Below the pieces are notes generated by a model, which made no database searches, had not been told where the DNA came from, and was given only the letters and a program-made list of their open reading frames with translations. From positions 1-24,615 of IMG/VR virus record IMGVR_UViG_3300050821_003760: a stretch of DNA of 24,615 nt; one strand, written 5' to 3'. The position numbers and the translations under genes are program-made. Each line of letters starts with the position of its first letter. Within the stretch, counting starts at the first letter, position 1. Origin of the DNA: a virus. Shown in pieces: positions 2,437 through 23,838 of the stretch.

Positions 2437-2847
2437 TTAGTCGATGTCCATTTCTTTGCGGCCGGCGGGGTGCTCGCCCTTGCGAGCCGACGAGAACGGG
2501 TGCGAGTCGGCGCCCGTCTTGCCGCCGCTCGCCCGCGGCTTGCGGCCGGCGTGGTGCTTGGCATGCTCGCCGTGCACCGGGCCGACGTGGTGGGCGTGGG
2601 CGAGCTCTTCCATCCGTTCATGGTGGACGTGGCCGCCGCGCTTGCGCTCGGCACGGCCACCCATGCACTCCTTGCAGCGGCAGGTCTTCGCGTGCTCGAC
2701 CTTGCCGCCCTTCTTGCGCTCTTCCGCCTCGGAATCGATCTTCCTGGCGTCCGTGCGCGCTTCGGGCTTGTCCTTCAGGTCCGCCTCGGCGTCATCGCGG
2801 CCGCCGGTGGAGCGTTCCTTGCGTTCGTGGTCCTTGCGGCCCTTCAT
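2437..2847 (-). CDS. Small His/Lys/Arg-rich protein with a CxCxxC motif and basic Gly-Gly repeats
   Basis: 136 residues, strongly hydrophilic, with about 15 histidines. It has a C56-x-C58-xx-C61 cluster (CRCKEC) that could bind metal, followed by GG motifs after basic residues (KKGG, RKRGGH, RASGGK). The start at 2847 has an excellent ribosome site (AGGAGAG). The segment HHAGRKPRASGGK (about 98-110) closely matches HHAGKRPRRKAGGK in the 444-residue protein at 9183-10517, so the two share a module. Such basic Gly-Gly proteins occur next to capsid genes in other phages but have no established function. DNA or scaffold binding is only a guess. Confidence 0.7.
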   Translation of the reverse strand: MKGRKDHERKERSTGGRDDAEADLKDKPEARTDARKIDSEAEERKKGGKVEHAKTCRCKECMGGRAERKRGGHVHHERMEELAHAHHVGPVHGEHAKHHAGRKPRASGGKTGADSHPFSSARKGEHPAGRKEMDID

Positions 2848-3415: not shown

Positions 3416-4105
3416 CTAGGTCTCCACAGCTTTCAGCGGCACGACCTTGGAGGCGTGCTTTTCGATGTAGTCGGCAGCGGCGCGGAGGGATGCGGCGTTA
3501 TCCTTGAAGGCGCCGAGACCGACGTTGCAGGCCGCGCAGAGGAGCCCGCGAATCTGGTCCGTCTCGTGGCAGTGATCGACGGCGAGCGCCTTCGTAACAC
3601 CATCACGCTTCTGGGTTTCCGACTCGCCGCAGATGCCGCATTTGTTGCCCTGAGCAGCGACCATGTCGCTGTACTCCGAGAGCGACAAACCGAACGAGCG
3701 CTGCAGGTCGCGGTCCTTCCAGAACATCTGGTGCTCTTCGCGGCTCTTGCGGACATAATCAGCTGAGTTCTTCTCGCTGGTCAGCGCGGTCTCGCGCTGC
3801 TCCAAGTTGGCGATAGCGAGGTTGAGCGGATCGCCGTCCGCGAAAGCGAGTCGGGCGAGCGGCCACTCACCGTAGTGCAGCAGCCACGCAATGCGTTGAG
3901 CGGGAATGACAACGCCCTGCAGGCGCACGTAGCGGTAGGAAACTTCCTTGCCGTCTTTGTCTTTGCGGGTGGCCTTCACCGACCCCGCTTCCGATCCGGC
4001 CAGCACATTGCGCGACGGCTTGATCTTCCACCAGATTTTGCCGGTGTCCGCATCGTAGGCCAGCGCTTCGCTGACGATTTCGTAGTCCAGACCCCATTCG
4101 GCCAT
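3416..4105 (-). CDS. HNH endonuclease, endonuclease VII-type, with a degenerate second HNH-like domain
   Basis: 229 residues from ATG 4105, chosen because GAGAGAGG sits 8 bases upstream; an in-frame ATG at 4177 has no well-placed ribosome site. Residues 156-194 hold a complete recombination endonuclease VII zinc/HNH motif: C156-x2-C159, then VDHCH (176-180) and LLCAACN (188-194), as in free-standing phage homing nucleases. Residues 55-103 resemble the HNH_3 type (RYVRLQGVVIPAQRIAWLLH, then GEWP), but the expected IDHxNGD is replaced by LAFADGDPLN, so that half has probably lost catalysis and may only bind DNA. The gene sits between the capsid gene and a structural gene, next to AT-rich DNA, as expected for a selfish homing gene. 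A role in resolving branched DNA is an alternative. Confidence 0.85.
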   Translation of the reverse strand: MAEWGLDYEIVSEALAYDADTGKIWWKIKPSRNVLAGSEAGSVKATRKDKDGKEVSYRYVRLQGVVIPAQRIAWLLHYGEWPLARLAFADGDPLNLAIANLEQRETALTSEKNSADYVRKSREEHQMFWKDRDLQRSFGLSLSEYSDMVAAQGNKCGICGESETQKRDGVTKALAVDHCHETDQIRGLLCAACNVGLGAFKDNAASLRAAADYIEKHASKVVPLKAVET

Positions 4106-4204
4106 AGCTCGATCCTCTCTCTGCCGTGATTGGCGAGGGAACCTTACCACAGTCTGGTTTTGGTCCGCAACCTTCATAACAAAGGATAACCTCTTAGAAC
4201 GTTA

Positions 4205-8348: not shown

Positions 8349-8738
8349 CTACCACACCATGTCCGGATCAGGGACGCGCCCGTCGATGCGGTCGTCCCGA
8401 ATGACGCGGCAGATTTTGCCGTTGATCTTCAGCGGGAAGCTGTTCGAGGTGCGGAACCACACCCAGTCGCCGATCGCCGCCTTGTCGTCGAAGGCGTAGG
8501 CCTCGGTATCGACGAAGGCCTGGGGCCCAAGCTGGACAACGAGGCCGACCTTGCCCTGGAACTGGTCCTCGTCGCGGGTGCTGTCGGTGAGGATGATGCC
8601 GCCCTTCGTCTTCTCGGGGCGCTCATAGACCGCGACCAGCACCAGGTTGCGCCAGACGAGGCCCGAGGGAATGGACCCGAGCTTGTCGTAGATGACCTGC
8701 TTGGGGTCGATGTCGTGGATCATCTGCGCGGCTGGCAT
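8349..8738 (-). CDS. GroES-like co-chaperonin (phage Cpn10 homologue)
   Basis: 129 residues. The core aligns by eye with GroES: NLVLVAVYERPEKTKGGIIL (31-50) corresponds to the GroES beta strand plus mobile loop (…ETKSAGGIVLT), followed by FQGKVGLVVQLGP (60-72) for the RGEVLAVG strand and AIGDWVWFRTSNSFPLKING (88-107) for VGDIVIF. A roughly 28-residue N-terminal extension and a C-terminal RIDGRVPDPDMVW are extra. T4 gp31 and related phage proteins replace host GroES to fold a coat protein. The position two genes before the coat gene suggests the same here. The GGIIL tripod that binds GroEL is intact. Ribosome site AAGGG lies upstream; the preceding gene's stop is two bases away. Confidence 0.82.
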   Translation of the reverse strand: MPAAQMIHDIDPKQVIYDKLGSIPSGLVWRNLVLVAVYERPEKTKGGIILTDSTRDEDQFQGKVGLVVQLGPQAFVDTEAYAFDDKAAIGDWVWFRTSNSFPLKINGKICRVIRDDRIDGRVPDPDMVW

Positions 8739-8953: not shown

Positions 8954-9183
8954 CAGGCGGAAGCCTCGGTGAAGGACGGCGGATCATCGTACGACACGCG
9001 GCGGTACTCCTGGATCGCTTTCGCCATCGCGAGCTCCCGGCGCCGTTCATCCTCTCGGTCCCAGAACTCTGGATCGCAGCCCAACTTCACGAGTTCGCAG
9101 CTGAAAGCGTATACCGCTCGCCGGATTCGGCTCTCCTCGGTCGCGAAAACGCGGCGCTCGTAGTCCTCGGGACCGACTAGCAT
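8953..9183 (-). CDS. Small charged hypothetical protein
   Basis: 76 residues rich in Glu and Arg (YERRVFATEESRIRRAVYAF at 8-27, then DPEFWDREDERRRELAMAKA at 37-56). It lies in a tight run: its start overlaps the stop of the large Pro/Gly-rich gene by one base, and its stop overlaps the next start by one base. No motif was recognised. Codon use matches its neighbours, which supports real coding. Confidence 0.68.
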   Translation of the reverse strand: MLVGPEDYERRVFATEESRIRRAVYAFSCELVKLGCDPEFWDREDERRRELAMAKAIQEYRRVSYDDPPSFTEASA

Positions 9184-10517
9184 CAGTAGTGCCCGTCAAG
9201 CTCCTCGGCGCGCTTGCCGTAGTCCTCGATCTTCTCAAGCCGGCCGAGGCCACCGCCTCCACCGCCCTGGGTGTCGATCCGGCCACCGCGCTTGCGGGGT
9301 GGGGGCATCATCGGGGGCGGGCCACCTGGGGGCATTCCGGGCGGAGGCATGCCTGGAGGGCCTGCCATGCCTGGAGGCGGCATCGGTGGACGCGGCGGGG
9401 GCATCGGAGGCGGCATCGGCCCACCAGGGGACGGCATGGCCGCAGCCGGGTCCTGATGGCCGCCACCGGGGGCGATGACGATGTTGACACTCATCTTGCC
9501 GGCCTTGCCGGCTGAGCCGCCGCGCTTGCGGGCCAGCGCTCGGTTCTGCTGCGATTTGCTGGCTAAACTGTTGGCATCGTACGTCGTCTCGCGAGGCGCG
9601 GCCATGCGGTTGGTGCGAGACTTACTAGCCAGCGAATTGGCGTCATAGGTGGTTTCACGCATGCCGCCGCCCTTGGCGCGGTGCAGCACCTTGTCAGCCT
9701 TGGCGTCGATCTTCTCTTCTTCGCCTTTCGAGAGGCGGCCCTTGTGCTCCATCTCGGAGGCGCGTGCCTTCGCGTTGGCCGCGTGGCTCTTGTCGGGCAT
9801 CGGGTACTTGCGGGAGCCGGGCTCGCCGAAGTCACCCTTCGGCAAGCGATCACGCTCCTTGGTGTCCAGCTTGCCGCCGCGGGCCCGGGGATCTCGCCCG
9901 CCGTCGTGCTTCGAGAACTGCTCCTTGTAGAGCCTACCACCTTCGGCCCGATGCGGCTTCAGCGCCGAGGGCTTCACTTCGCGGTGGATGAGTTCCTCGT
10001 CTTCGCGCTCGTCAGAATGCTCTGCGGCGCCGCCCTTCTTCAGGCCTGCAGCCTTCGAGGCCAGCGAAGGGCCGTTCTGGAAGTTGAAGCGGCTGGACGG
10101 GACGCCGCTCTGGTTCGTCAGGCCGCCCGGCAGTAGACCGGCGAGCGCTGTGCCGCCGACATCCCGCTTGGCGCGGCCGCCCTTCTTCATCCCGCCTTCG
10201 TGCTTGATGCCGTCGCGCTCTTCGTTGGCCGACTTCACGTCGGCGTTCTCCCAGTCGTTGATCAGCGCTTTGCCGCCAGCCTTGCGCCGCGGACGCTTGC
10301 CGGCGTGGTGCATCGCCTCCTTGCCCTCGACGTGGCCGCCTGACTTGTAGTTGCGCCGCTTGGAGACAGGACGCGGCCCAGTCTGCACGTCGGCATGCAT
10401 GGGGCCAGCTTCGGTCCATGAACTCGCGTCCACCTTCTGGTGAGGATCACCCGAGTCGCCGAGCCTGCGGGCCTTCGCCTTCATCTCGGAGCGGTAGCGC
10501 TTGGACTCTTCGCTCAT
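9183..10517 (-). CDS. Large basic low-complexity protein with Gly-Gly repeats, a duplicated 14-residue peptide and a Pro/Met-rich tract
   Basis: 444 residues, low complexity throughout. At least nine basic-GG motifs occur (KSGGH, RKAGGK, MKKGGR, LKKGGA, RAEGGR, RARGGK, RAKGGG, and RKRGG twice). Residues about 236-283 contain a PMPDKSHAANAKARASEMEH-type helix as seen in other phage proteins. The peptide RETTYDANSLASKS occurs twice (287-300, 309-322). Then comes VNIVIAPGGG (about 343-352), a Pro/Met/Gly tract (about 358-412), and a C-terminal LGRLEKIEDYGKRA. Similar chimeric basic/proline-rich proteins lie beside portal genes in other alphaproteobacterial phages, with no known function. It may bind DNA or act as a flexible internal virion protein. 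It shares a module with the protein at 2437-2847. Confidence 0.75.
   Translation of the reverse strand: MSEESKRYRSEMKAKARRLGDSGDPHQKVDASSWTEAGPMHADVQTGPRPVSKRRNYKSGGHVEGKEAMHHAGKRPRRKAGGKALINDWENADVKSANEERDGIKHEGGMKKGGRAKRDVGGTALAGLLPGGLTNQSGVPSSRFNFQNGPSLASKAAGLKKGGAAEHSDEREDEELIHREVKPSALKPHRAEGGRLYKEQFSKHDGGRDPRARGGKLDTKERDRLPKGDFGEPGSRKYPMPDKSHAANAKARASEMEHKGRLSKGEEEKIDAKADKVLHRAKGGGMRETTYDANSLASKSRTNRMAAPRETTYDANSLASKSQQNRALARKRGGSAGKAGKMSVNIVIAPGGGHQDPAAAMPSPGGPMPPPMPPPRPPMPPPGMAGPPGMPPPGMPPGGPPPMMPPPRKRGGRIDTQGGGGGGLGRLEKIEDYGKRAEELDGHY
9552..9659 (-). repeat. Peptide repeat with maximally diverged codons
   Basis: Two copies of the 14-codon unit encoding RETTYDANSLASKS at 9618-9659 and 9552-9593, separated by an 8-codon spacer. 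The peptides are identical, yet 13 of 14 codons differ, all synonymously (only the GCC alanine codon matches). Identity is therefore conserved at the protein level, not as a recent DNA duplication. Confidence 0.9.
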
Positions 10518-11512: not shown

Positions 11513-13864
11513 TCAAGAGTCTTTGCCCTCGGCCTCTTCCTCGACCTTCGGGACCTCGCGCGCGGCCATCTCGGCGTCGTGCGCGTGGCCCAGCACGGTC
11601 TCCGTGAGGTGCAGCAAATCACTCCGATGCTCAGCCGCGCGGTCGGCCGCTTGGTTCTGGTTCTCGCTGGACAGCTTGTGCATGTCGAGGTGGAGACCGG
11701 CCTTTTTGGTCTCGGCGTCCATGAGCGACGCCTTTGCCTTCATCTCCGCGGCCGGGTCGGGCGGCGGTTCTTGTCCGGCGCCCAGCCCGGCCTGCTTCAC
11801 CTCGGCCGCCTTAGCCTGCGCCATGATCAGCGCCGCGATGCTCTTGCGGTCGTCGGCGCCGGCCTTGGTGGCCTCGGCCTGGCTCTTGGCCTGCATCGCC
11901 ACCAGCTCCGGCGGCGGCTGGCCCATCGCGCTTGGCGGCACGAAGAACTGGCTCGGATCGCCAAAGCCCAGCACGTTCTCGATCAGGAACGTGTCGACCT
12001 TGATCGGGTCGTAGAGGCTCTGGCTCTGCATCTGCAGCTGCTTCAGCCCCATGCCCTTCAACATACGTTGGGTGTGGCTCGCCGTGTTCGGGTCGGCCTG
12101 GGGAACCAAGTCGTGGTCGTCGAGCGCTTTGACGAACATCTCTGTCGTCCACTGGACGTTCGAGGGCTTGTCGTTGCGCAGGAAGCTATCGGGGTGCTCG
12201 CGGAACACGTCGACCAGCAGCTGGAACTCCTGCGCCTGGCTGGCGTGCATCCGCTTGTGCACCGAGTTCATCAGCTTGGTCGCCTGCTCGACCATGGCCA
12301 GAGTCGTGCCCACCGGGGCGTCTGCCTTGCCCTCGCCGACCTGCAACTCGGACGTGCCGCCGATCCGCTGGCCGTTCGTCTCCATGGTCTGCGTCAGCGC
12401 CATCAACGCCGGCATGTGCTGCGTGTTGTAGGGCAGCGGCATGATCGCGTCGCCGATCGACATGCCGTTGGTCTTCACCGGAGCGCCAGCGCCAGGCGCC
12501 ACCCTCGTCAGGTTAGAGTTCTGCCGCGTGCCGAAGTCGGCGATCAGGTAGCCGGGGAAATTGGCGAACATCCCGTTGTCGAGCATCTCGCGGTTGGCCG
12601 CGGTCAGCGCGTTGGTGGTGTTGCCCAGGATGTGCAGCAGGCCGATGTCGTAGAAGCCGAACCCGGGCACGAAGCTGTACTTCACGAAGGTCTGCCGGGC
12701 CTGGGGCAACTCCTCCTTGGCTTGGTTGAAGTTGCGCACCACCGACAGGACCTGCCGCGAGGTGACGTCGATCGTCACCCGATAGGGCACCTCGAGGCCG
12801 CTCTCCTTGCCCTTCCACTTGTGCTCGTAGCCCTTGATGTCGAGTTCGCAGTAGCACTCGTAGAACTCGCGATCTCGGTCCTCAGGCAGGCCCGGCTCGA
12901 CCGAGACGCCTTGCTGGCTCGCCTCCTGGCGCTTCAGCGAATCGACGTTCTCGGGCTTCGGGATGTCGGTGAGGTCGACGTCGCGGTAGACGCCGAGGAT
13001 CTGCATCCGGCGCACCGTCGAGGGCTTCACCATCATCTTGTGCGTGACACGGCGGGCGTTGGCGAGGTCGGTGGCGTCGTTCGAGACGATCAGGTCGTTG
13101 GCGTCGACCGTCTCGGAGACCGGTCGCATACGGAGCGGGCAGAAGTAGACCTTCTTGAACGAGGTGCCGGCGAAGCCGAACTTGAACAGCATCCTGTCCG
13201 TGTCCGGATAGTACTCGGGCGCCTCGGCGGTCAGGTAGTGGTTGAGGTCCGTCTCCAGAGCATCCGCTAGCGCGCCTTGGGCAAGCGGTGGGCCACCGTT
13301 GTGACCGATGGCGGGCGGCCCATTGGCGTCGTCCCTGACCTTCACGGGCCCGTCCGTGGGCAGCAACTCCGAGCGCGCGTTGGCCTGGAAGCGCAGGCAG
13401 GCCTCAAGCAACAGCGGGTGGCGCACCTTGCTCATCTGGCCTTCGAGCGAGTCGGCGCCGCTCGTGCCCGGAATCTCGATCTCCAGGCCCAGCAGCTTCA
13501 CGCCCTGGGTGACCGCCTCGATCCAACCCTGCCGGCTCGTGATGTCCGAGTCGATCCCGCGCAGCAGGTCCTCGGCGATGCGCGACAGCTCCATGTTGTC
13601 GATGCGGTCGGCGAGATTGGCGAACCAGCCGGTGTCGCGCTTGGCCTCCTCGTGGTCGAAGATCGGCTTGCCATCGAGGCTGATCGTGACCGAACCATCG
13701 TCGTGGTCGATCTTCACAACCGCGCCCTTGTCGTCGAGCGTGAAGGCATCGCCCCCACCCTCTTCGATCTCGACCTGGATGTCGCCGTGGTCGTTCGCGG
13801 CTGGCGGCATGCCGAAGGCCGTTCCGCCGACTAAGCGCAGGTTGGGAGGGGCGAGGCCAGCCAT
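11513..13864 (-). CDS. Portal protein (P22/podovirus type)
   Basis: 783 residues, long like P22-type portals. The N-terminal 75 residues form an extra acidic extension with a short beta region (VVKIDHDDGSVTISLDGKPI). The core begins near residue 76 with DTGWFANLADRIDNMELSRI and carries MSKVRHPLLLEACLRFQANA (144-163) then RSELLPTDGPVK, the portal hallmark. The C-terminal 150 residues are Ala/Lys/Glu-rich coiled coil, as in the portal barrel. It forms the dodecameric DNA gate at one capsid vertex and docks TerL. It is preceded by a hairpin-containing gap and followed by the Cys-rich gene in the same frame. Confidence 0.88.
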   Translation of the reverse strand: MAGLAPPNLRLVGGTAFGMPPAANDHGDIQVEIEEGGGDAFTLDDKGAVVKIDHDDGSVTISLDGKPIFDHEEAKRDTGWFANLADRIDNMELSRIAEDLLRGIDSDITSRQGWIEAVTQGVKLLGLEIEIPGTSGADSLEGQMSKVRHPLLLEACLRFQANARSELLPTDGPVKVRDDANGPPAIGHNGGPPLAQGALADALETDLNHYLTAEAPEYYPDTDRMLFKFGFAGTSFKKVYFCPLRMRPVSETVDANDLIVSNDATDLANARRVTHKMMVKPSTVRRMQILGVYRDVDLTDIPKPENVDSLKRQEASQQGVSVEPGLPEDRDREFYECYCELDIKGYEHKWKGKESGLEVPYRVTIDVTSRQVLSVVRNFNQAKEELPQARQTFVKYSFVPGFGFYDIGLLHILGNTTNALTAANREMLDNGMFANFPGYLIADFGTRQNSNLTRVAPGAGAPVKTNGMSIGDAIMPLPYNTQHMPALMALTQTMETNGQRIGGTSELQVGEGKADAPVGTTLAMVEQATKLMNSVHKRMHASQAQEFQLLVDVFREHPDSFLRNDKPSNVQWTTEMFVKALDDHDLVPQADPNTASHTQRMLKGMGLKQLQMQSQSLYDPIKVDTFLIENVLGFGDPSQFFVPPSAMGQPPPELVAMQAKSQAEATKAGADDRKSIAALIMAQAKAAEVKQAGLGAGQEPPPDPAAEMKAKASLMDAETKKAGLHLDMHKLSSENQNQAADRAAEHRSDLLHLTETVLGHAHDAEMAAREVPKVEEEAEGKDS

Positions 13865-15890: not shown

Positions 15891-17717
15891 TTAGCCTGGA
15901 TAAAGAGGCTGAGGCCGCTTCACGTTGTCCAGCTGCTTGGCCTCCTCGACCTCGGCGAGCCGCTCGTTGGAAAGCTGCAGCATCCCCGTGTCGCGCAGGA
16001 AGCGCAGGGCCTGGCTCACGGTATCCACAAGGTCGTCGTGCTTGCCTCTGGGGAACATCCCCACTTGGGTGATGACCATGTCGGCCCACTGGCGGTCCGG
16101 CGCCCAGACGATGCCCTGGCGCACGATCACCTCCTGCACCTTGCCGCCGATCAGGCGCTTGGCCTTCTCCGGAGCAAACAGCGGCACCACCGAGTGCAGG
16201 CGGGCCAGCTTGTCCATCGACTTCGGGTCCTGCACCATCACCCCGAAGCGCTCGTGGCCGTAGAGCCGGCGCATCTCCTGCGCGACCGAGTGGCCGCTCG
16301 CTTTATTTTCGATGAGGAGCATGTCCACTTTGTTGCGCTTGCAGGTCTCGGCGACCTTGACGACGAGGTCGTGGAGCTCGAGCCGCTCCTGCCAGGCCAT
16401 CATCATCATGACCTTGGCCGTCTCCTCGGCGTAGGTTCCCGATAGCGCCACCTGAACCGGGTCTATGCCCGGCACCTGGTCGATCGCCCCGCTGCGCTGT
16501 TGCTGCCTCGTCGCCTGCTCCTGGGTGTTGACTGTGAAGACCCCCCAGATCGTCAACGCGCTGAAATCGTTCTCCGTCTTCTCGGTGAAGGCCGTGTCCA
16601 GCGAGCCGATGATGTAGTCGAACGGCGGGAAGGTCGTCAGGTCCCAGGTGTTCCACCAGTCGCGCTTGATGACGCCGCCGCCGCGGGGCTCGGGGCGTTG
16701 CTGGAGTTGGCCACTCGAGCCCCAAGGGCCAAGGGTTTGCTCTAGCAGTGCGACCTCTCGCTCACCGAAGCGCTCGGGCCAAAGTAAATCACCTTCCACT
16801 GTGCGCGGGTCTTTCCAAGTGATCGGCGCGCCGTCTTCTCCGTAGCCGAGCACAGTGACGAAGGAGCGATCAGCCTCATACCGCATCGGCATCATCACGT
16901 GGACCCATTCGCCGATGTTGCGCTCAAGGACGTGCCCGCTCAGATCGTCTTCAGCAAGCCTTTGTTGCTGAATGATAAATGCGCCTTGCTTCGGGTCGTT
17001 TAGACGAGTGCTGGCCGTCTGGTCCCACCATTCGTTGGTGGCTTCGATGGTGGCTTCACTGGCTGCGGCGTTCGCAGCATTGGGGTCGTCGCAAATAAAT
17101 AGGTCGCCGCCTTCGCCAGTTGCAGCTCCTTTCGGGATTGAGGTGATTAGACGCTCGCCACCTACATCGTTGACCAGCCTGATGGCGCTGTCCTGGAGAA
17201 GCGAAAACCGGTCTCCCCAAAGTGATTGGTACCATGGGCTCGTCAGGAGCCGAGCACAGCGCAGGGAGTCCCTCCGTGACAGGCGCTCCGCATACGAAGC
17301 GTACATGAACTTGACGCCGGCGCCAGAGGTCACTGAGCGGTCAGGCTGAGCCCAGCACCAAGCCGGAAACGCGATCGCCAGCAACGAACTCTTGCAGCAC
17401 CGCGGTGGAATGTGGATTAGCAGACGCTTGATGTGGCCATCAACAACAGCTTGAAGGTGCTCGGCAATCGCCTCAATGCACCAGCCATCTTGCCACGGTG
17501 CCGGATCGATATAGGGCCATGCGGCCTTCAGGAACTCATAGAGACTGTCTTCGTAGAGCGCCCGGCGTTCGTCTAACTGAGGGCGCTGGGCGAGACGCTG
17601 CTCCTCCTCACGCTGCTGCTCAGTGAGCCGTCTCCTGCGCTCCATCTCGGCGAGGATCAGGTGGTGGGGCGGTGGAGGCCGCTCCTGAAGCAATTGCGAT
17701 AGCTGCGATCTGTTCAT
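15891..17717 (-). CDS. terL: Terminase large subunit (packaging ATPase/nuclease)
   Basis: 608 residues, a full-length terminase large subunit. The ATPase part has an atypical Walker A, IPPRCCKSS (103-111), the conserved VKFMYASYAERLSRRDSLRC (135-154), WYQSLWGDRF, TGEGGDLFICDDP (200-212, Walker B at D210/D211) and WWDQTASTRLNDPKQGAFII (230-249). The RNase H-like nuclease has D374 (SLDTAF), E470 (LLIENKASG) and D561/D562 (KHDDLVD). It drives DNA into the head and cuts the genome. The start overlaps TerS by 98 bases; an in-frame ATG at 17645 would cut the overlap to 26, so the N-terminus is uncertain. Confidence 0.93.
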   Translation of the reverse strand: MNRSQLSQLLQERPPPPHHLILAEMERRRRLTEQQREEEQRLAQRPQLDERRALYEDSLYEFLKAAWPYIDPAPWQDGWCIEAIAEHLQAVVDGHIKRLLIHIPPRCCKSSLLAIAFPAWCWAQPDRSVTSGAGVKFMYASYAERLSRRDSLRCARLLTSPWYQSLWGDRFSLLQDSAIRLVNDVGGERLITSIPKGAATGEGGDLFICDDPNAANAAASEATIEATNEWWDQTASTRLNDPKQGAFIIQQQRLAEDDLSGHVLERNIGEWVHVMMPMRYEADRSFVTVLGYGEDGAPITWKDPRTVEGDLLWPERFGEREVALLEQTLGPWGSSGQLQQRPEPRGGGVIKRDWWNTWDLTTFPPFDYIIGSLDTAFTEKTENDFSALTIWGVFTVNTQEQATRQQQRSGAIDQVPGIDPVQVALSGTYAEETAKVMMMMAWQERLELHDLVVKVAETCKRNKVDMLLIENKASGHSVAQEMRRLYGHERFGVMVQDPKSMDKLARLHSVVPLFAPEKAKRLIGGKVQEVIVRQGIVWAPDRQWADMVITQVGMFPRGKHDDLVDTVSQALRFLRDTGMLQLSNERLAEVEEAKQLDNVKRPQPLYPG

Positions 17718-17958
17718 CCGTGAGCTTGGTCAAATCCCAGCCGTGGTCGACGGGTTGTCGCGCCTTGCCGTAGGCGCGGTCAAGGATGACGTTCCCCGCA
17801 GCTACCCGAGCGGTGTCGCTCTCGGACTTGGTGGCGATGCGGTGCATCTCTTTCATCACCGCAGGGACGTAGGAGCGGGCGAGCGCCTGAATCTCGGCTG
17901 TCGCTTTGTTGGGGCTACCCGTCCGAGGGCCTCCACCGGTCTTTCTGCCTTTTGCCAT
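17620..17958 (-). CDS. Terminase small subunit-like protein
   Basis: 112 residues directly before TerL. The N-terminus MAKGRKTGGGPRTGSPNKAT (1-20) is the basic/glycine DNA-binding arm seen in many small phage proteins at this position, followed by a helical region (AEIQALARSYVPAVMKEMHR, 21-40; SDTARVAAGNVILDRAYGKA, 47-66). This GRPKGSPNK...LDRAYGKPRQ layout is common in proteins annotated as terminase small subunit or of unknown function. It likely recognises the packaging site. The 3' end overlaps TerL. Confidence 0.7.
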   Translation of the reverse strand: MAKGRKTGGGPRTGSPNKATAEIQALARSYVPAVMKEMHRIATKSESDTARVAAGNVILDRAYGKARQPVDHGWDLTKLTDEQIAAIAIASGAASTAPPPDPRRDGAQETAH

Positions 17959-17984
17959 CTCAGTTTATCGCAATTCGCGAGGCG

Positions 17985-18626
17985 CTATTTGCGCATCATC
18001 GAGTCGCCGAACCGCGCAACCCACTGCTGGGTGAAGTCGGTGTCCGGATTCAGGCTGCCGTCGATCACGTCCTTGGCGACCAGCCGCATGCGCTCGCGGG
18101 CGTCCGCGTCGTCGCGGCAGATGATCTGGGCGGCGAAGTTGAGTGGGCGCAGCATGTGGGCCGAGGCTACTGCGTCACCGCGCAGGCATGCGTCTACGTC
18201 GGCGTTCGGATCCAGGGCGGCGAGCCAGAACTCGTGGGTGGCGCCAAGCTTGTAGACCATCGTCTTTGTGCCGGGGATCGGCTCGAGGCTGATCAAGACC
18301 AGCAGGTAGCTGTGCCATAGCGGGTGGGCGTAGGGCGCCTGCATGATCCAGATCGCCTTGGTCGAGTCGTGGTCTGCCTCGCGCTCGCCTCTGAGGGTGA
18401 TCACGCCGGTCTCGATGAGACGCGCCTTCGCCTTGGGCCAGTCAAGGCTCCAGGCCCTGCCGTGAATGCCGATCTCGTCGGCCGAGGTCTTCACCTTCGG
18501 GATGTTGTCGCGTCTGGCGCCGGCCATGGACGCGAGGGCGCGCATGTTCTCGCCGCCGGTGCCGACGATGGCCAAGGCGGCCACTTGGCTGGGTGGAGGA
18601 CCGGTGGGGAGCGTCTCGTCGGGCAT
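17985..18626 (-). CDS. Conserved-type phage protein of unknown function upstream of terminase
   Basis: 213 residues from ATG 18626; a start 40 codons upstream exists, but that extension lies over the next gene's tail and looks non-coding. The protein has SQVAALAIVGTGGENMRALA (about 13-32), then HPLWHSYLLVLISLEPIPGT with KTMVYKLGATHEFWLAALDP (from about 121), and LRPLNFAAQI (about 178-187). The LTPIPGTKTM...ATHEFWL pattern is one I associate with uncharacterised phage proteins next to terminase genes. No catalytic residues are evident. It ends 26 bases before TerS starts, so it probably shares the packaging operon. Confidence 0.7.
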   Translation of the reverse strand: MPDETLPTGPPPSQVAALAIVGTGGENMRALASMAGARRDNIPKVKTSADEIGIHGRAWSLDWPKAKARLIETGVITLRGEREADHDSTKAIWIMQAPYAHPLWHSYLLVLISLEPIPGTKTMVYKLGATHEFWLAALDPNADVDACLRGDAVASAHMLRPLNFAAQIICRDDADARERMRLVAKDVIDGSLNPDTDFTQQWVARFGDSMMRK

Positions 18627-18657
18627 GTGCGTCAGCCTAGCGTCGCATTGGCGCAGG

Positions 18658-19026
18658 TCAAGCGTCTGGTCCGATGTCGCTGAGCATGGGGCGTAGAGTA
18701 TCCCTGAGAGATAGCAATCCGTCGAACTCGCGCCAGCACAGGTCATAGACGGCGTCTAAGTCTTTGAACCTGCTACCTTCTACGGCGAGGATGGTGGGGC
18801 CTTTGGACACCTCCCACATCGGCTTGGCGCCTTCGGTCTGGGTGTGGAGCAGCTGTCCGCTTCCGTCACGCGAAGTGACCGGGAACAGCATCCACTTGTC
18901 GCTGTCGGCGTCGATGCAGACTGCGGCGAAGTCGTCTTCGTCCAGCGGGTGCGGGCCTTTCGCGCGGGCTGCGGCCTTGGCTTCCTCAACGGCGCGGCGG
19001 GTCTCGCCCTTGGTCAGGACGCTCAT
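18658..19026 (-). CDS. Hypothetical protein
   Basis: 122 residues from ATG 19026, overlapping the stop of the tiny membrane gene by ATGA. It starts with a charged helix (SVLTKGETRRAVEEAKAAAR), then a beta-type region (DKWMLFPVTSRDGSGQLLHT, 42-61), and ends in a Trp/Asp-rich helix (LDAVYDLCWREFDGLLSLRD). No family was recognised. It is an accessory gene between the packaging genes and the transposase remnant. Confidence 0.66.
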   Translation of the reverse strand: MSVLTKGETRRAVEEAKAAARAKGPHPLDEDDFAAVCIDADSDKWMLFPVTSRDGSGQLLHTQTEGAKPMWEVSKGPTILAVEGSRFKDLDAVYDLCWREFDGLLSLRDTLRPMLSDIGPDA

Positions 19027-19115
19027 AGCCACCAGCCCACAGCGCAGGCGCCGACGGCTAGGGCGATCACCATGAGAGTCGCAGCCCACTCAGGGAGGGT
19101 GAGGCGGCCCTTCAC
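19023..19115 (-). CDS. 30-residue single-span membrane peptide, GTG start
   Basis: GTG 19115 to TGA 19023. The start overlaps the previous stop (GTGA) and the stop overlaps the next start (ATGA), so it is embedded in a coupled string. The product has a basic N-terminus (MKGRLTLPEW) and one hydrophobic helix (AATLMVIALAVGACAVGWWL). It is a likely inner-membrane peptide of unknown role. It is the second 30-residue membrane peptide in this genome (compare 15417-15509). Confidence 0.5.
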   Translation of the reverse strand: MKGRLTLPEWAATLMVIALAVGACAVGWWL

Positions 19116-19537
19116 GGCGTTCCCCGAATCGTATCGCTCACCCAGAGGGTTTCCCACTCGCCGATCTCGTGGGCGCTGAGCTCGAAGCGAGCCATCGCGG
19201 TGGCGCGGTCGACCATCGCCATCTTGATCATGCGTAGCAGTTCCAGTTTGCGGGCCGGAACCCAGCGGCCCGCAGCTTCGATCTTGTGGCCGATTTCTTC
19301 AAGCCTTAGGTGGGTGTGGATGATCTCCTCGACCGTCTGGTGCGGCCAGGCGTAGAGGTGGCGGCCTGAGGGCAGGAGCGCCACGAGGCCAGCACTGTCG
19401 CGTCTGGAGCGGTATGCCAGCCAGTAGGCCGCCTCGCTGATCTCCATGCGCCGCGTCAGTTCGACGCGCTCGACGATCGGGGGCCAGCCGAGATCTGGGA
19501 GGCGGGCGGCGCGTGGCTGGTCGGGCTCGGAAAGCAT
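19112..19537 (-). CDS. Hypothetical protein
   Basis: 141 residues, helical and rich in Arg/Glu. Notable segments are LTRRMEISEAAYWLAYRSRR (27-46), a beta piece LVALLPSGRHLYAWP (51-65), and VEEIIHTHLRLEEIGHKIEA (69-88). No catalytic or DNA-binding motif can be named. It overlaps its upstream neighbour by one base (TGATG) and the downstream GTG by four. Confidence 0.66.
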   Translation of the reverse strand: MLSEPDQPRAARLPDLGWPPIVERVELTRRMEISEAAYWLAYRSRRDSAGLVALLPSGRHLYAWPHQTVEEIIHTHLRLEEIGHKIEAAGRWVPARKLELLRMIKMAMVDRATAMARFELSAHEIGEWETLWVSDTIRGTP

Positions 19538-19734
19538 CAGACCGCGATGCCTTTGCTGGTGCGCGTCTGGGCCATCAGAGTGAGCCGTCCCGCTATCTCA
19601 GCCTCAGAGCGAGAAGGGAGTGCCGATCCCAGGCGCTGCAGGGCGTGCAGGATCAGCTCGTCCTCGGCCTGGGTGAAGGCGCCCGGCTTCATGGGCCAGA
19701 CTGGTCGGTCTGTCGTCTGCCACTGGCTGTGCAT
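19537..19734 (-). CDS. Small SANT/Myb- or HTH-like protein
   Basis: 65 residues with a strong ribosome site (GGGAGG, 5 bases before the ATG). Residues 18-55 (GAFTQAEDELILHALQRLGS, then ALPSRSEAEIAGRLTLMAQT) resemble the Myb/SANT-like layout in which an acidic helix is followed by a recognition-type helix (EIAGRL). This suggests a small DNA-binding protein. It is the first complete gene after the transposase remnant and may have lost or gained its promoter by that insertion. Confidence 0.6.
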   Translation of the reverse strand: MHSQWQTTDRPVWPMKPGAFTQAEDELILHALQRLGSALPSRSEAEIAGRLTLMAQTRTSKGIAV

Positions 19735-19764
19735 CGCGCCCTCCCGGTGCGAATGGTTAATCCA

Positions 19765-20195
19765 TGCCTATCCGGTTATCACCCATGATCGCTAAATGTG
19801 GGATGGTCCCACTCTCCAGAATACAGGGTGGCGTAAGTCGGGGCTTCGTTGATCCCGGCCAGTCCGAGCAACGAGCGGAAGCTGTTGAACGGGTAGTGGC
19901 GGCGGTTGAAGCGGAAGGCAAACTCGTTGAGGTAGGCTTGCAGGTGCTTGCCGCTGACGCCGTGGTGCGTCCCCTTCAGCCACGTCTTCAGGTTCGAGAA
20001 GACCATGTGGACCATCGGCAAGTAGTCTTCGGCGACCTGCGGGTTATCGTTCTCAGCGGCGGCAAGGTGGTCGTAGCCGCGCTTGGCGAGGCTGGCGTAG
20101 GCGTTCCACCCGTCCGTCACAACCATCATTCCCGGCGCGACGGCGGCCTCCACGAAGCCGCAGAGCGACGCTGCGGTACGTGGCCGGCGGCTGAC
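19765..20195 (-). mobile_element. Remnant of an IS1595 (ISXO2-like) insertion sequence
   Basis: Only the 3' part of the transposase gene and one probable end survive. The sequence TATCCGGTTATCACCC (19769-19784), which contains the transposase stop, may be part of the terminal repeat. No inverted copy was found on the other side, up to 20471, so the left half has been deleted. The limits are approximate. Confidence 0.6.
19779..20195 (-). pseudogene. Truncated IS1595-family (DDE_Tnp_IS1595/ISXO2-like) transposase
   Basis: In-frame from 20195 to the stop at 19779, about 138 residues, roughly the C-terminal half of a 300-residue transposase. From the GTG at 20153: the second catalytic D in VVTDGWNAYASL (D14), the N of MVFSNLKTWLKGTHHGV (N54, the third residue of the DDN-type triad), and HLQAYLNEFAFRFNRRHYPF (70-89). 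The N-terminal zinc ribbon and first catalytic Asp are absent: upstream of 20195 there is a stop (20196-20198) and no transposase-like sequence in any frame. It cannot be active. Homology by eye starts at about TAASLCGF. Confidence 0.85.
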
Positions 20196-20471
20196 TTATC
20201 GGGGGCCTAGTGGCGGGCAATCGTCAGCGGACAATGGGCCGCAAGCGTCGGCGTCGTGGAGCGACTGGCTCACGGTCTGAGGCTGCCGATCCGCGTCAAT
20301 TGGAGTTGCCGCTCGGAGACATGAAGCACAAGTAATGGTGCGACTCAGTCTAGCGCGCCATCTCTGTCGGCGTCTTCCTCTGGCGGCATGTCCGGCATCC
20401 GGGGAACTCCTCATTAAGGAAGTTCCCACCTTAGCCACCCATCGCTGCGTTTGCAAAAGGCATAATCGCCC
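20196..20471. other. 276-base gap between the IS remnant and the next gene
   Basis: No convincing gene. An 86-codon minus-strand frame (20196-20456) is Arg/Ser-rich with no recognisable pattern. A 17-codon minus-strand frame (20345-20398, MPDMPPEEDADRDGALD) does have a good ribosome site, placed inside the hairpin at 20402-20427. The segment may be the remains of a gene destroyed when the IS was inserted and deleted. Confidence 0.4.
20402..20427 (-). promoter_or_regulatory. Hairpin that hides a ribosome binding site
   Basis: Arms GGGAACT(CCT) at 20402-20411 and (AGG)A-AGTTCCC at 20417-20427 form a 10-base stem with one bulge and a CATTA loop. On the minus strand the 3' arm contains GAGGAG, 8 bases before an ATG at 20398. 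The stem would sequester this ribosome site, resembling an attenuator or thermometer. It could also simply be a terminator of the gene ending at 20472. Confidence 0.4.
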
Positions 20472-20882
20472 TCAGAGACGCCCAGGGCGCACGTAGAGCG
20501 CCTCGTAGGTCTCGCTCGCCGATTGGCGGAGCTTCTGCGCGAAGACCAGGGCCGCGGCCTTCTGCTGGTGGGTCTTGATGCGCGCGTTCTCACCGAACGA
20601 CAGGTCGTCGACCACCGACCAGACCACACCCTCCAGCTTGTCCCAGGCCTTGATGACGGCCGAGAGGTTCTTGATCGTGCGGGGCATGATCTGCGGGATC
20701 AGAGACGTGATCGCGCGGCCAGTCTTGGTGTGGGTGATGGCCCAATCGGTGAATCCACTCGCGGCGATAGCGTCTTCGTGGCGGGTCAGCGCGAAGCGAC
20801 GCTGGTGCCCGACGTGGCGCACCTCGACCTTCGTCAATTTTATGCCGTCTCGCGTGGCGATCTGGACTTCGTTCAGGTTCAT
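20472..20882 (-). CDS. Hypothetical protein
   Basis: 136 residues from ATG 20882, chosen because GGAG is 6 bases upstream; the ATGs at 20903 and 20894 lack a site. Beginning MNLNEVQIATRDGIKLTKVE, it has a region (RRFALTRHEDAIAASGFTDW, 28-47) and a mid-section AWDKLEGVVWSVVDDLSFGE. No family was recognised. The segment WDKLEG...W is also in the first 15 residues of the next protein upstream (21049-21375). Confidence 0.65.
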   Translation of the reverse strand: MNLNEVQIATRDGIKLTKVEVRHVGHQRRFALTRHEDAIAASGFTDWAITHTKTGRAITSLIPQIMPRTIKNLSAVIKAWDKLEGVVWSVVDDLSFGENARIKTHQQKAAALVFAQKLRQSASETYEALYVRPGRL

Positions 20883-20908
20883 TGTGGTCTCCATTCTGGC
20901 CACCAGTC

Positions 20909-20946
20909 GGAGCGGCGCCTCTCAAGGCGGGGGTGCGCGCCGCTCC
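20909..20946 (-). terminator. GC-rich 10-base inverted repeat in the 5' leader
   Basis: Perfect arms GGAGCGGCGC (20909-20918) and GCGCCGCTCC (20937-20946) with an 18-base loop, 26 bases upstream of the ATG at 20882. Such a stable stem in a leader could act as terminator, protective 5' structure or protein-binding site. No T-tract on either side. Confidence 0.4.
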
Positions 20947-20989
20947 TAGATGGGGGTCAGTCTCCTTTTCTGGTTGGTCCTGCCCCAAA

Positions 20990-21016
20990 GGCTCCGCACG
21001 CTTTCGCGCCGGAGCC
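20990..21016 (-). terminator. Probable terminator after the gene ending at 21049
   Basis: On the minus strand GGCTCCG...CGGAGCC pairs, the stem continues through CGC/GCG and closes with a GAAA tetraloop (11 pairs, one bulge), followed by TTTGGGG. It lies 33 bases after the stop of 21049-21375, a normal spacing for a terminator. The T-run is short, so efficiency is uncertain. Confidence 0.55.
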
Positions 21017-21048
21017 AGATGGCGGGTTGATCCGCGATGGGGGAGGGC

Positions 21049-21375
21049 TCAGGCCGGAACAGCGCTCACCGTGCCGTCGGCGTTGACAGGAGCGCTTCCC
21101 CACCCCAAACCGAGGCGCAGTTCCCCCGGCTGACGGTCACGCCAGTGCGAGATATATTCGCTGGCGACGGGCTCTGGGCGGCCGTTGAAGATGTGGTACC
21201 AGACACCGCCTTCGCGCCACGCATCAGGAACGCCGAACTCATCAGACATGCCGAAGGAGCGCGGGCTTGCGGGGATGCGCATCCAAACATCGACCACGAC
21301 CTTCTCCGAAGGAAGAGTTTTGCGCGAAAGCGTCTTCCACCCGCCTCCTTCCAGCTTGTCCCAAATCACCTTCAT
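21049..21375 (-). CDS. Hypothetical protein
   Basis: 108 residues from ATG 21375 (AGGAAGG is 9 bases upstream; the ATG at 21384 sits directly on the ribosome site). Begins MKVIWDKLEGGGWKTLSRKT, then a beta region (VVVDVWMRIPASPR) and GVPDAWREGGVWYHIFNGRP (48-67). Trp-rich, single-domain size. A terminator-like hairpin follows its stop. Function unknown. Confidence 0.66.
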   Translation of the reverse strand: MKVIWDKLEGGGWKTLSRKTLPSEKVVVDVWMRIPASPRSFGMSDEFGVPDAWREGGVWYHIFNGRPEPVASEYISHWRDRQPGELRLGLGWGSAPVNADGTVSAVPA

Positions 21376-21402
21376 CGTTCTCATCCTTCCTGTTGGGGGG
21401 GG

Positions 21403-21546
21403 CTAGGCTAGTTCGCGTTCGAGCCGTTCGGCCGCCTCGCGGTAGCGAGCGACCAGCGCTGCGTGACGCGCCTTGCCGTCCGAAAGGAACTCGCGCAGCT
21501 TGGCGAGCATCTCGCGCTTGAACTTGGTTTCGAGCGGGTCGGCCAT
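21403..21546 (-). CDS. 47-residue coiled-coil peptide (short gene)
   Basis: ATG 21546 to TAG 21403 with an excellent AGGAGGG site 6 bases upstream. The product (MADPLETKFKREMLAKLREF, then RHAALVARYREAAERLEREL) is one long charged amphipathic helix, likely dimerising. It is the first gene on the minus side of the divergent control region at 21547-21702, so it may be an early regulator or anti-host peptide. No family recognised. Confidence 0.65.
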   Translation of the reverse strand: MADPLETKFKREMLAKLREFLSDGKARHAALVARYREAAERLERELA

Positions 21547-21614
21547 CTTCTTCCCTCCTGAAGCGCCAGAGCGCTTGCGTTCGATGACGTGAGACTACGC
21601 CGATCTCGCGCGTC

Positions 21615-21687
21615 GTCAACATAAAATCTATTGTAGTCGATAAATTGTTGACCATCCGCCGGGCCATGTGGCATAACTCAGTCAACA
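21615..21687. promoter_or_regulatory. Divergent control region with three GTCAACA boxes
   Basis: In the 156-base gap between the minus gene (start 21546) and the plus cassette (start 21703), an AT-rich island contains GTCAACA at 21615-21621, its inverted copy TGTTGAC at 21646-21652, and GTCAACA again at 21681-21687. Centres are spaced 31 and 35 bases. This is the typical layout of a repressor operator controlling two divergent promoters. Confidence 0.55.
21648..21677 (+). promoter_or_regulatory. Candidate sigma70-type promoter for the plus cassette
   Basis: TTGACC (21648-21653) as a -35 element, 18-base spacer, and CATAAC (21672-21677, 4 of 6 matches to TATAAT) as a -10 element. Transcription would start near 21684, inside the third GTCAACA box, so a protein bound there would block it. 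The -35 itself lies in the inverted box. Confidence 0.45.
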
Positions 21688-21702
21688 ACAGGAGCGACTC
21701 AG

Positions 21703-21882
21703 ATGCCCGACGCGATCCCCCTGACAACCTGGCAGAAGGCCCAGGCGATTTACGCGCAAGCCGAGGTCGATTGGAACACCGCTGGGCGCCCGTGTGCGCT
21801 GCATCAGGCGGTTGACGATTACTTCGGATCGGTCGACGCCTATCTGGCGTGGGTCGCCGAGCGCAAGCAGGAGCAAGTCTGA
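21703..21882 (+). CDS. 59-residue protein, first gene of the plus-strand cassette
   Basis: ATG 21703 with AGGAG 8 bases upstream; stop TGA at 21880-21882 overlaps the next start by one base (TGATG). The product is helical and acidic/aromatic (TTWQKAQAIYAQAEVDWNTA at 8-27, VDDYFGSVDAYLAWVAERKQ at 37-56). No family was recognised. Too short for many gene callers. As the leader gene of an isolated plus-strand operon under its own promoter, it may be an early protein. Confidence 0.68.
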   Translation: MPDAIPLTTWQKAQAIYAQAEVDWNTAGRPCALHQAVDDYFGSVDAYLAWVAERKQEQV

Positions 21883-22298
21883 TGATCCCGATCTACCGCG
21901 ACTACCGCATCGAACGCACCGACGGCATCGTCCCGGCTGATTCGCGCTGGTATGCCACGCAGGACGACGGCGAGCCCTGCCTGTTCGGCGCCACGCCCGA
22001 GGATTGCCGCGAGGCGATCGACGACCACATCGAGTGGATGGAAGACCGCTTCCTGCGTCGGCGTCTGGCCGCGGCTCCGGTCCTTTCCGGCATGCGCCGG
22101 GCCGATGGCACGATGGCGCTCTATCGCGGCTATCGTCAGGTCGGCCTGCTGCTGAGCGAGGCCGTCATCCAAGAAGCCCTCGCCTGCGGCTGGTACGTGA
22201 GCGACAGCTGGCAGGACCGGCTTTACCGCGTCATACCTACCGAAGACGCCCACAAGGCGCTCCTGAGCGCTCTGGCGGCTTCTGCGGGGGTATCCTGA
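21882..22298 (+). CDS. Hypothetical protein, second gene of the plus cassette
   Basis: 138 residues from ATG 21882 (coupled, TGATG); a start 33 bases earlier lies inside the previous gene. Two halves are visible. Residues 1-52 (YRDYRIERTDGIVPADSRWY, then DCREAIDDHIEWMED) resemble the small beta-beta-beta-alpha modules found in phage accessory proteins. The second half has GTMALYRGYRQVGLLLSEAV (75-94) and a mixed-helix C-terminus ending ALLSALAASAGVS. Function unknown. Confidence 0.7.
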   Translation: MIPIYRDYRIERTDGIVPADSRWYATQDDGEPCLFGATPEDCREAIDDHIEWMEDRFLRRRLAAAPVLSGMRRADGTMALYRGYRQVGLLLSEAVIQEALACGWYVSDSWQDRLYRVIPTEDAHKALLSALAASAGVS

Positions 22299-22483
22299 TG
22301 GAAGCTGAACCCCAACCCGTCTGCTGGGCCCTCCTGAACCCCAGGACCGGCAAGGTCGCCGAGGTCTGTTACGTCCGGGAGGAAGCAGCGAGGACCGGCG
22401 CTGAGAAGCCCACGAACCGCTGGAGCACCTACGTGGCTGTGCCGCTGTTCCTGCATCCCGCAGCCTACGAGGACAAGTCATGA
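22298..22483 (+). CDS. 61-residue hypothetical protein, third gene of the plus cassette
   Basis: ATG 22298 overlaps the previous stop (TGATG); the TGA at 22481-22483 overlaps the next ATG (ATGA). Beta-rich small domain: VCWALLNPRTGKVAEVCYVR (8-27) and RWSTYVAVPLFLHP (41-54). Two cysteines (C9, C24) may form a metal site or disulfide. Function unknown. Confidence 0.66.
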   Translation: MEAEPQPVCWALLNPRTGKVAEVCYVREEAARTGAEKPTNRWSTYVAVPLFLHPAAYEDKS

Positions 22484-22702
22484 CCGAAGCCACATCGCTC
22501 ACCGCTCGCTGGTATCGCGGCGGCCGATCCATCGAGGCCGCCGGCCACGACCATGAGGGCCGCCCATACTGGACAGTCGAGGGCGTCACCATCGAGGCCG
22601 ACGGTGATACCCTCGAGGTCCGGCAGTCTCGGCGGTTTCGGGGGCCTTGGAGGCCTGCTGCTGCTGATCCTCGTCGTGCTGTTTCTGATGGGGCGGCTCT
22701 AA
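22480..22702 (+). CDS. Small protein whose frame appears to change before a membrane segment
   Basis: Starts ATG 22480 (ATGA coupling): MTEATSLTARWYRGGRSIEA, then HDHEGRPYWTVEGVTIEADG, a plausible 45-50-residue domain. In the same frame it would run to 22947, but beyond about 22635 the sequence becomes Arg/Pro-rich and lies antisense to a well-supported minus gene (22699-22875). In the +1 frame the DNA instead encodes GGLGGLLLLILVVLFLMG and stops at 22702, at the convergent border. I infer a +1 frameshift (programmed, mutational or a sequencing error) or two overlapping genes; the end given here follows the frameshifted reading. Confidence 0.5.
22604..22702 (+). CDS. Possible 32-residue membrane peptide nested at the end of the plus cassette
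   Basis: GTG 22604 with GAGG 6 bases upstream, ending TAA 22702. The product is a Ser/Gly linker (SRSGSLGGFGGLGG) then one strongly hydrophobic helix (LLLLILVVLFLMG). This is the alternative to a frameshift in the preceding gene. If translated alone it would be a membrane-inserted peptide, perhaps holin-like, but no family can be named. Confidence 0.4.
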   Translation: MIPSRSGSLGGFGGLGGLLLLILVVLFLMGRL

Positions 22703-22875
22703 CCTTTAAGCACCGACTTTCCCTTGCTAGCCGCGCCGAGCTTTCCGAACTTGTGACGATTCCACTGTGCGGCGAGCCGTTTTTGCCTCTTGGTCATCGG
22801 CTTCGGCTTGAGTTTAATCGGCAACGGCTCAATCGCTCGGTGCTCTTCGGCCCACTTTTTGGTGACGTTGGCCAT
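22699..22875 (-). CDS. 58-residue very basic protein (short gene)
   Basis: ATG 22875 with GAGAGG 7 bases upstream; TAG at 22699-22701, so it meets the plus cassette tail to tail. The product is Lys/Arg-rich (PIKLKPKPMTKRQKRLAAQW, 19-38; HKFGKLGAASKGKSVLKG). A small nucleic-acid-binding peptide is likely; no family named. Its existence argues against the long plus-strand reading through this region. Confidence 0.65.
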   Translation of the reverse strand: MANVTKKWAEEHRAIEPLPIKLKPKPMTKRQKRLAAQWNRHKFGKLGAASKGKSVLKG

Positions 22876-23094
22876 CTAGAATCCTCTCTCCATAGCGTAG
22901 CCCTTTCCGCCTGCCGGCACGGGCTTAGGCCCCCCGACAGTCCCTGACCAAGGGAGAGACTCAAGAGCGAGCCTCGCGTACTCAATTCCCTTCCCCCGTG
23001 CCGGGGCCAGCGCATTGTCCCTGCGCCGTCGCCTGAGAGCATTTTGCGGCGCTCTCACGTCGCGGATTGGGCGGGGAGTCAATCCCGCTGACAA
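22876..23094 (-). CDS. Hypothetical protein, start uncertain
   Basis: Up to 72 residues if TTG 23094 is used; a GTG at about 23055 is an alternative. The C-terminal half (IEYARLALESLPWSGTVGGP, then KPVPAGGKGYAMERGF) looks like real protein, and its TAG directly abuts the ATG of the basic peptide gene (TAGATG). The N-terminal part is Arg-rich and may not be translated. The DNA also holds a 10-base inverted repeat (22914-22923 with 22995-23004). Confidence is low to moderate. Confidence 0.4.
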   Translation of the reverse strand: MSAGLTPRPIRDVRAPQNALRRRRRDNALAPARGKGIEYARLALESLPWSGTVGGPKPVPAGGKGYAMERGF

Positions 23095-23349
23095 GCCGCG
23101 CCGCTCCGTACCGTTCCCGGGGATGCCGGGCGCCGTTTAGGCCGCGGGAAGGAATGGGCGCACCTGAACCCGCGTTTTGTTCGTGGTTTTGAGGGAGCCA
23201 CGCGAACCTTGGGCGACACATCAAGCCCTAAGGTGTTGCGGGGAACGAGGCGGTGCTCTACGTTGTTTGAGCACCGTGTAGGGTTCCACCAAACCCAGGG
23301 TCGTTCGGGACTGCCACCACAGACCGGACGACCCACACGATGCTCCCGA
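23095..23349. other. 255-base hairpin-rich region without a convincing gene
   Basis: Frames on both strands are open in places but have no ribosome sites or recognisable pattern; a 26-codon GTG frame on the minus strand just after 23350 is too weak to call. Structure is prominent: CGTGG/CCACG (23182-23202) and the hairpin at 23251-23276. Next to replication genes, this could be a regulatory RNA or leader, but there is no direct evidence. Confidence 0.4.
23251..23276. terminator. 8-base hairpin downstream of the replication gene
   Basis: Perfect arms CGGTGCTC (23251-23258) and GAGCACCG (23269-23276) with a 10-base loop, about 75 bases after the stop of 23350-23838. No T-tract on either strand. 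A factor-dependent terminator or RNA structure is possible. Confidence 0.4.
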
Positions 23350-23838
23350 TCAGATGATGTCGTCAAGCGCCTCGGTTGGCCGATAGCCGCGACTGTCGAC
23401 ACGCCGGCTCGGCCAAAGGCGCATGCCCTGCTCGGCTCCTGTCTCGCCGGGCCGCCGCGACAGCTCGCGGAAATTGATGTGGCCAGCGCTGTCGAGTTGG
23501 CAGGCGAGGCGCTGCAGGCCTTGGCGCACGTAATCGCGCTCTTCCGCTGTCGGCTTCGGCCGGGGCGGCAGCGGCTCGATCACGGCGACAGCCTTCTCGG
23601 GCCGAAACACCTTGCGGCAATAGGCGAGCAGCTCGCCAGGCGTGGGCATCTTCTTCGCCTCGGACGTGCGCCAGTTGGTGCAGGCAATCCGCACATCGCA
23701 CTCACCGAACCCGGCGCCGGTTAGATCGCTCACGTAGTCGTCGAGCCACCTAGAGAAGTCGGCCTGACCCATTTGACGGCGCGGGTAGTGAGCGGCTAGC
23801 GCCTTGAGTTCCGCCAAGATCTCCACTTCGTCCGCCAT
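23350..23838 (-). CDS. Replication-region hypothetical protein
   Basis: 162 residues, start ATG 23838 with GAGG upstream; an in-frame ATG at 23772 is an alternative. The layout DFSRWLDDYVSDLTGAGFGE (27-46), VRIACTNWRTSEAKKMPTPG (49-68) and ELLAYCRKVF (69-78) resembles the helical region of phage helicase-loader or primosome-associated proteins (a helix pair then [F/M]PTPGELL). The remainder is Pro/Arg-rich. It overlaps the preceding replication gene by 89 bases. Helicase loading is inferred, not shown: there is no P-loop. Confidence 0.6.
   Translation of the reverse strand: MADEVEILAELKALAAHYPRRQMGQADFSRWLDDYVSDLTGAGFGECDVRIACTNWRTSEAKKMPTPGELLAYCRKVFRPEKAVAVIEPLPPRPKPTAEERDYVRQGLQRLACQLDSAGHINFRELSRRPGETGAEQGMRLWPSRRVDSRGYRPTEALDDII

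Follow-up and report, generated by a model that had tools for sequence, protein, structure and literature searches.

Two identical copies of a 14-residue peptide, RETTYDANSLASKS, lie close together in a basic phage protein of 444 residues and are encoded by almost entirely different codons, a pattern that we attribute, on balance, to the ancient, lineage-specific duplication of a linear motif located in a tract predicted to be disordered, the motif having been held under strong purifying selection while synonymous sites became saturated. The stretch analysed, which we call the window, comprises the 24,615 bases of a linear virus record, a single metagenomic contig (IMG/VR IMGVR_UViG_3300050821_003760). 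The gene occupies 9183..10517 on the minus strand. Translation and codon comparison place unit 1 at 9618..9659 (aa 287-300) and unit 2 at 9552..9593 (aa 309-322), both on the minus strand, forming direct repeats of 42 bp each, 66 bp apart. As the initial annotation had stated, the two peptides are identical and 13 of the 14 codons are changed: GCC (Ala7) is the sole codon common to both units, while the remaining 13 differ synonymously and none of the 14 residues is altered. Nucleotide identity between the units is 26/42 and their longest identical word is 5 nt. One serine is spelled TCG or AGT depending on the copy, two codons that no single synonymous base change can link.

The repeat-bearing protein is basic (82 K+R, 55 D+E), rich in glycine and proline, and built of cassettes. 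It is encoded between a gene for an SU10-type portal (11513..13864, minus strand), which served as the anchor for finding relatives, and its downstream neighbour, a gene for a GroES-like co-chaperonin (8349..8738, minus strand), both recognized by Pfam and PHROGs; the order portal, 444-residue protein, GroES is identical in MW202675.1. This position in the structural module makes the protein a candidate virion structural or internal protein. Alignments delimit a conserved N-terminal region (aa 1-121; 10155..10517, minus strand) and a conserved C-terminal region (9186..9539, minus strand) comprising KM/TNINIVI, a proline-rich tract, RKRGGR and GxGRLEK. An AlphaFold2 run on 34 sequences gave a helix at aa 2-20 and a mean pLDDT of 51.7 for the 444-residue protein, with values of ~40 in the tract that holds both repeat units. 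The protein therefore appears from the model to be mostly disordered, and because mean pLDDT is only 51.7 we speak throughout of predicted disorder.

To place the protein among relatives we assembled 80 viral loci from the portal anchor and 80 more from a profile search, which after removal of duplicates yielded a family of 95 basic and apparently disordered proteins including that of the window, some of them clipped by contig ends. The window protein lies, like the family, between portal and GroES-like genes and carries the N-terminal VKTGMRP-type motif and the C-terminal (K)TNINIVI and GxGRLEK motifs; tblastn matches to homologues extend over its aa 1-442. Family members keep the N-terminal ~120 residues and the C-terminal region, and vary in the middle, where short segments are strung on KxGG linkers (mean of 5.9 [KR]xGG[KRA] per protein across the 95 members) and some segments recur across members in differing combinations. 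Internal identical peptides are found in other members too, and short motifs have been duplicated repeatedly across the family. We found no description of this mosaic, KxGG-linked family of portal neighbours in the literature. Elsewhere in the window, a 136-aa ORF (2437-2847, minus strand) carries two family cassettes, CRCKECMGG and VHGEHAKHHAGRKPRASGGK, in the order opposite to that in the homologue of locus L048, which suggests cassette shuffling; a relative that it matches over its full length is at 15915-16388 of locus L018. The interval between portal and GroES in Pelagibacter phage HTVC027P (8445-10756 of its locus, L169) contains small basic ORFs resembling family segments, among them KFIQKAIKKPGSLRKSLG and a GG-linker protein, and one of these ORFs matches DUF6321.

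The peptide itself is confined to the window protein. It is absent from the other 94 of the 95 family members and, since absence from homologues was the result that the initial annotation itself had named as arguing against functional constraint, RETTYDANSLASKS is not a family-wide functional element. A search for the peptide among phage proteins, as had been proposed, found two copies in the window protein, none in relatives and, with the patterns used, none elsewhere. The exact pattern TYDANSLASK had no match in viral_contigs, and hence revealed no single-unit donor, and neither the whole protein nor the 53-aa repeat region, used as a query, had a match there, although near-identical records may escape the pattern scans and closer relatives could exist unseen. 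Looser patterns led elsewhere: ETTYDANxLA in genome_contigs hit a single planctomycete MAG, in two contigs whose glycine-rich, RTX-like repeats we judged unrelated, ETTYDxNxLA and TYDANxLAxK in viral_contigs retrieved four proteins, all unrelated, and the three matches of the repeat in a tblastn search of phages, with E values of about 1-2, were unrelated too. Within the window protein, a third SLASK pentapeptide (aa 151-155; 10053..10067, minus strand) lies outside the repeat pair in the NGPSLASKAAGLKKGG cassette, where homologues read SRMSK or similar; it is possibly a coincidence. Judged by its distribution, RETTYDANSLASKS seems to be a motif specific to one lineage and not a part conserved among these viruses.

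What argues for constraint is the contrast within the pair. Each unit has about 9.7 synonymous and 32.3 non-synonymous sites, and every net difference between the units is synonymous. The eight residues following unit 1, RTNRMAAP (aa 301-308; 9594..9617, minus strand), are its tail or a spacer and use ordinary preferred codons; compared by eye, they agree at 3/8 residues with QQNRALAR (aa 323-330; 9528..9551, minus strand), which follows unit 2 as its tail. Thus 5/8 tail residues differ against 0/14 in the core (Fisher P of about 0.002, calculated by hand and assuming that the tails are homologous). The strong selection on the peptide that was originally proposed is accordingly supported within the pair, by the unchanged residues, the synonymous saturation and the diverged tails, but does not extend to homologues, which lack the motif. 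As far as the sequence can speak to it, these comparisons support the view that purifying selection has preserved the 14-mer in the lineage of the window. Saturation is plausible because the portals of even the nearest relatives are only about 54-62% identical to that of the window, and with portal divergence ample for saturation the duplication can be lineage-specific yet old. Near-random codon sharing also occurs elsewhere in the family, as in AYRSYKDMDAGAGSGEGRLEK of locus L110 (8/20 codons in common against 9.1 expected).

We envisage that some 22 residues, comprising the motif and its 8-residue tail, would have been duplicated as a unit long ago in the lineage of the window, after which purifying selection would have held the 14-residue core exact while synonymous sites saturated and the tails drifted. 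Common origin of the units by duplication, and purifying selection as the cause of their identity, are what we infer from the pair. The two copies might then give an otherwise unstructured protein a bivalent site of attachment. Portal and capsid, suggested earlier as binding partners, are disfavoured; docking to either is unlikely because relatives that keep a similar portal lack RETTYDANSLASKS. The partner would rather be lineage-specific, either a host factor or a variable phage protein.

Saturation does not account for everything. Independent draws from local codon usage predict 6.6-6.7 of 14 codons in common, and the probability of one or none is 6.6e-4 with the pooled codon usage of the window and 2.3e-4 with the usage of the gene itself without the units. 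The observed 1/14 therefore lies below the saturation expectation of ~6.6 (P 2-7e-4), and plain saturation leaves this deficit unexplained. These P-values are post hoc, because the pair was picked for its odd look, and multiplying by the 21-40 repeats examined weakens them to about 0.01-0.03. Across the 1.42 Mb of fetched loci, mostly from related phages, there are 40 distinct cases of a peptide of at least 9 aa repeated identically within a protein; the RETTYDANSLASKS pair has the lowest nucleotide identity of the 40 (0.62), the next lowest being 0.73. It is also in the two units that the gene uses its rarest synonymous codons, the 8-codon spacer and the flanks being ordinary, but given distinctness this rarity has P = 0.19. 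Rarity is expected once the copies must differ, so there is one anomaly, distinctness, and not two. Likewise, the units need no foreign, low-GC source once distinctness is conditioned on. Nor does mRNA structure provide a reason for the codons, the minimum free energy being typical of synonymous resamplings (P 0.37-0.53; z -0.85), and an 8-bp complementarity between the units arises in 5-8% of such resamplings.

The alternative that survives best, albeit one that we consider rather unlikely, is genetic stability: close identical DNA repeats would be lost by slippage or recombination, and synonymous changes that break their identity would be favoured. Such selection can act on top of the duplication of a constrained motif. 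The initial annotation had raised selection against DNA repeats, and the pair favours it weakly, in that codon sharing is below independence, the identical words are short and rare codons are confined to the units, albeit with a rarity that distinctness alone explains. Selection for stability is known from other work on codon choice that avoids mononucleotide repeats (PMC1378130); this was the only related case that we found in the literature, where our searches turned up nothing equivalent to codon-diverged repeats. The family, however, follows no such rule. The 20 other internal family repeats have 117 codons in common against about 100 expected, that is at or above expectation, pairs with 38/39 and 32/33 identical nt are among them, and the K, G and G codons of linkers within a protein coincide more often than under permutation (z +6.2; 95 proteins), those of the window being mostly AAG-NNN-GGC-GGC; the post hoc nature of the P-value also counts against it. 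A local effect of stability on the very close RETTYDANSLASKS pair is possible. Similar linker DNA could in turn provide short homologies, or recombination seams, for cassette exchange. We regard as unlikely the reading in which the codons of the pair were scrambled naturally for stability, with a tandem functional motif recoded against slippage in a family that may exchange its cassettes through linker homologies.

A further alternative, which we hold to be quite unlikely, is that the units are orthologous copies of the motif from two diverged phages, stacked by recombination, and so were never identical DNA in this lineage. The family is visibly mosaic, the 136-aa ORF at 2437-2847 has its two cassettes in an order opposite to L048, and the GC3 of unit 1 (0.50) departs from that of the gene (0.81). 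Against this, the search for exact TYDANSLASK in viral_contigs and its looser variants uncovered no donor with a single unit, and the codons of the spacer that separates them are ordinary and high in GC3. An artefact or chance, whether an assembly join of two strain variants or convergence of unrelated peptides, is highly improbable: the junction is indeed seen in one sequence, from a single metagenomic contig, but chance identity at 14/14 residues is negligible, a purely synonymous nucleotide divergence of 38% far exceeds ordinary strain variation, and both the reading frame and the conserved C-terminus beside the units are unbroken. Old duplication with purifying selection on the core remains our preferred reading. 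Identical peptides with saturated codons can flag functional linear motifs that lie within disordered proteins and escape searches by structure or domain, and since many environmental phages carry the mosaic KxGG-linked family close to the portal, its repeats and cassettes offer concrete targets for the study of function.

Two other genes of the window were recognized in passing. A protein encoded at 3416-4177 (minus strand), beside the major head protein gene, combines recombination endonuclease VII and HNH_3, and 19779-20153 (minus strand) encodes a partial ISXO2/IS1595-type transposase domain (PF12762, profile positions 71-153) in this phage contig.

Comparison with known systems gave a single firm match within the 444-residue protein. 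Its aa 215-282 (9672..9875, minus strand), a segment adjoining the repeat, match positions 2-69 of the 69 of phrog_16160, a profile of unknown function, with an E value of 1.6e-22; this full-profile match assigns that one segment alone to phrog_16160, and PHROGs had no other match to the protein. No Pfam family exceeded its own cut-off: DUF6582 (PF20223), which the same cassette resembles, scored 14.8 bits against a gathering cut-off of 27.3, and the CaiF/GrlA regulators (PF07180) 16.6 bits against 25, over 31 residues. Stand-alone versions of phrog_16160 occur in Komagataeibacter phage phiKX1 and Tunturiibacter phage Tunturi_1, where the proteins stop before the position of the repeat and are without RETTYDANSLASKS. 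Among homologues encoded between portal and GroES genes, those of MW202675.1 (Manatee Spring) and of IMG/VR loci such as L005, L048 and L064 are, like the window protein, downstream of the portal and keep the N- and C-terminal regions and the KxGG linkers, but differ in having other middle cassettes and no RETTYDANSLASKS. Fusellovirus VP2 (PF25632) is a virion DNA-binding protein. It is matched weakly by the KWIQSAIKHPGAL... cassette of some relatives, such as that of locus L007 (E 5e-4; 20.8 bits, under the curated cut-off of 27 bits, and over 19 residues only), a cassette that is absent from the window protein.

A further parallel in overall build is to the polyvalent proteins, described as carrying several effector or enzymatic domains in one polypeptide that is delivered with the phage DNA (Iyer et al. 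2017, as cited in PMC7159879). The window protein differs from them in its small basic segments and, with no enzymatic domain detected in Pfam or PHROGs, is not itself a polyvalent protein; the window has no polyvalent-type genes between the portal and the 444-residue protein. In MW202675.1, three large GG-linker proteins (16244-23741 of locus L170) lie directly before the homologue, two of which carry ART-PolyVal, peptidase M15 or InPase domains of the polyvalent type. The likeness consists in a multi-segment architecture with similar GG linkers, which polyvalent proteins with ART-PolyVal and InPase domains display right beside the MW202675.1 homologue.
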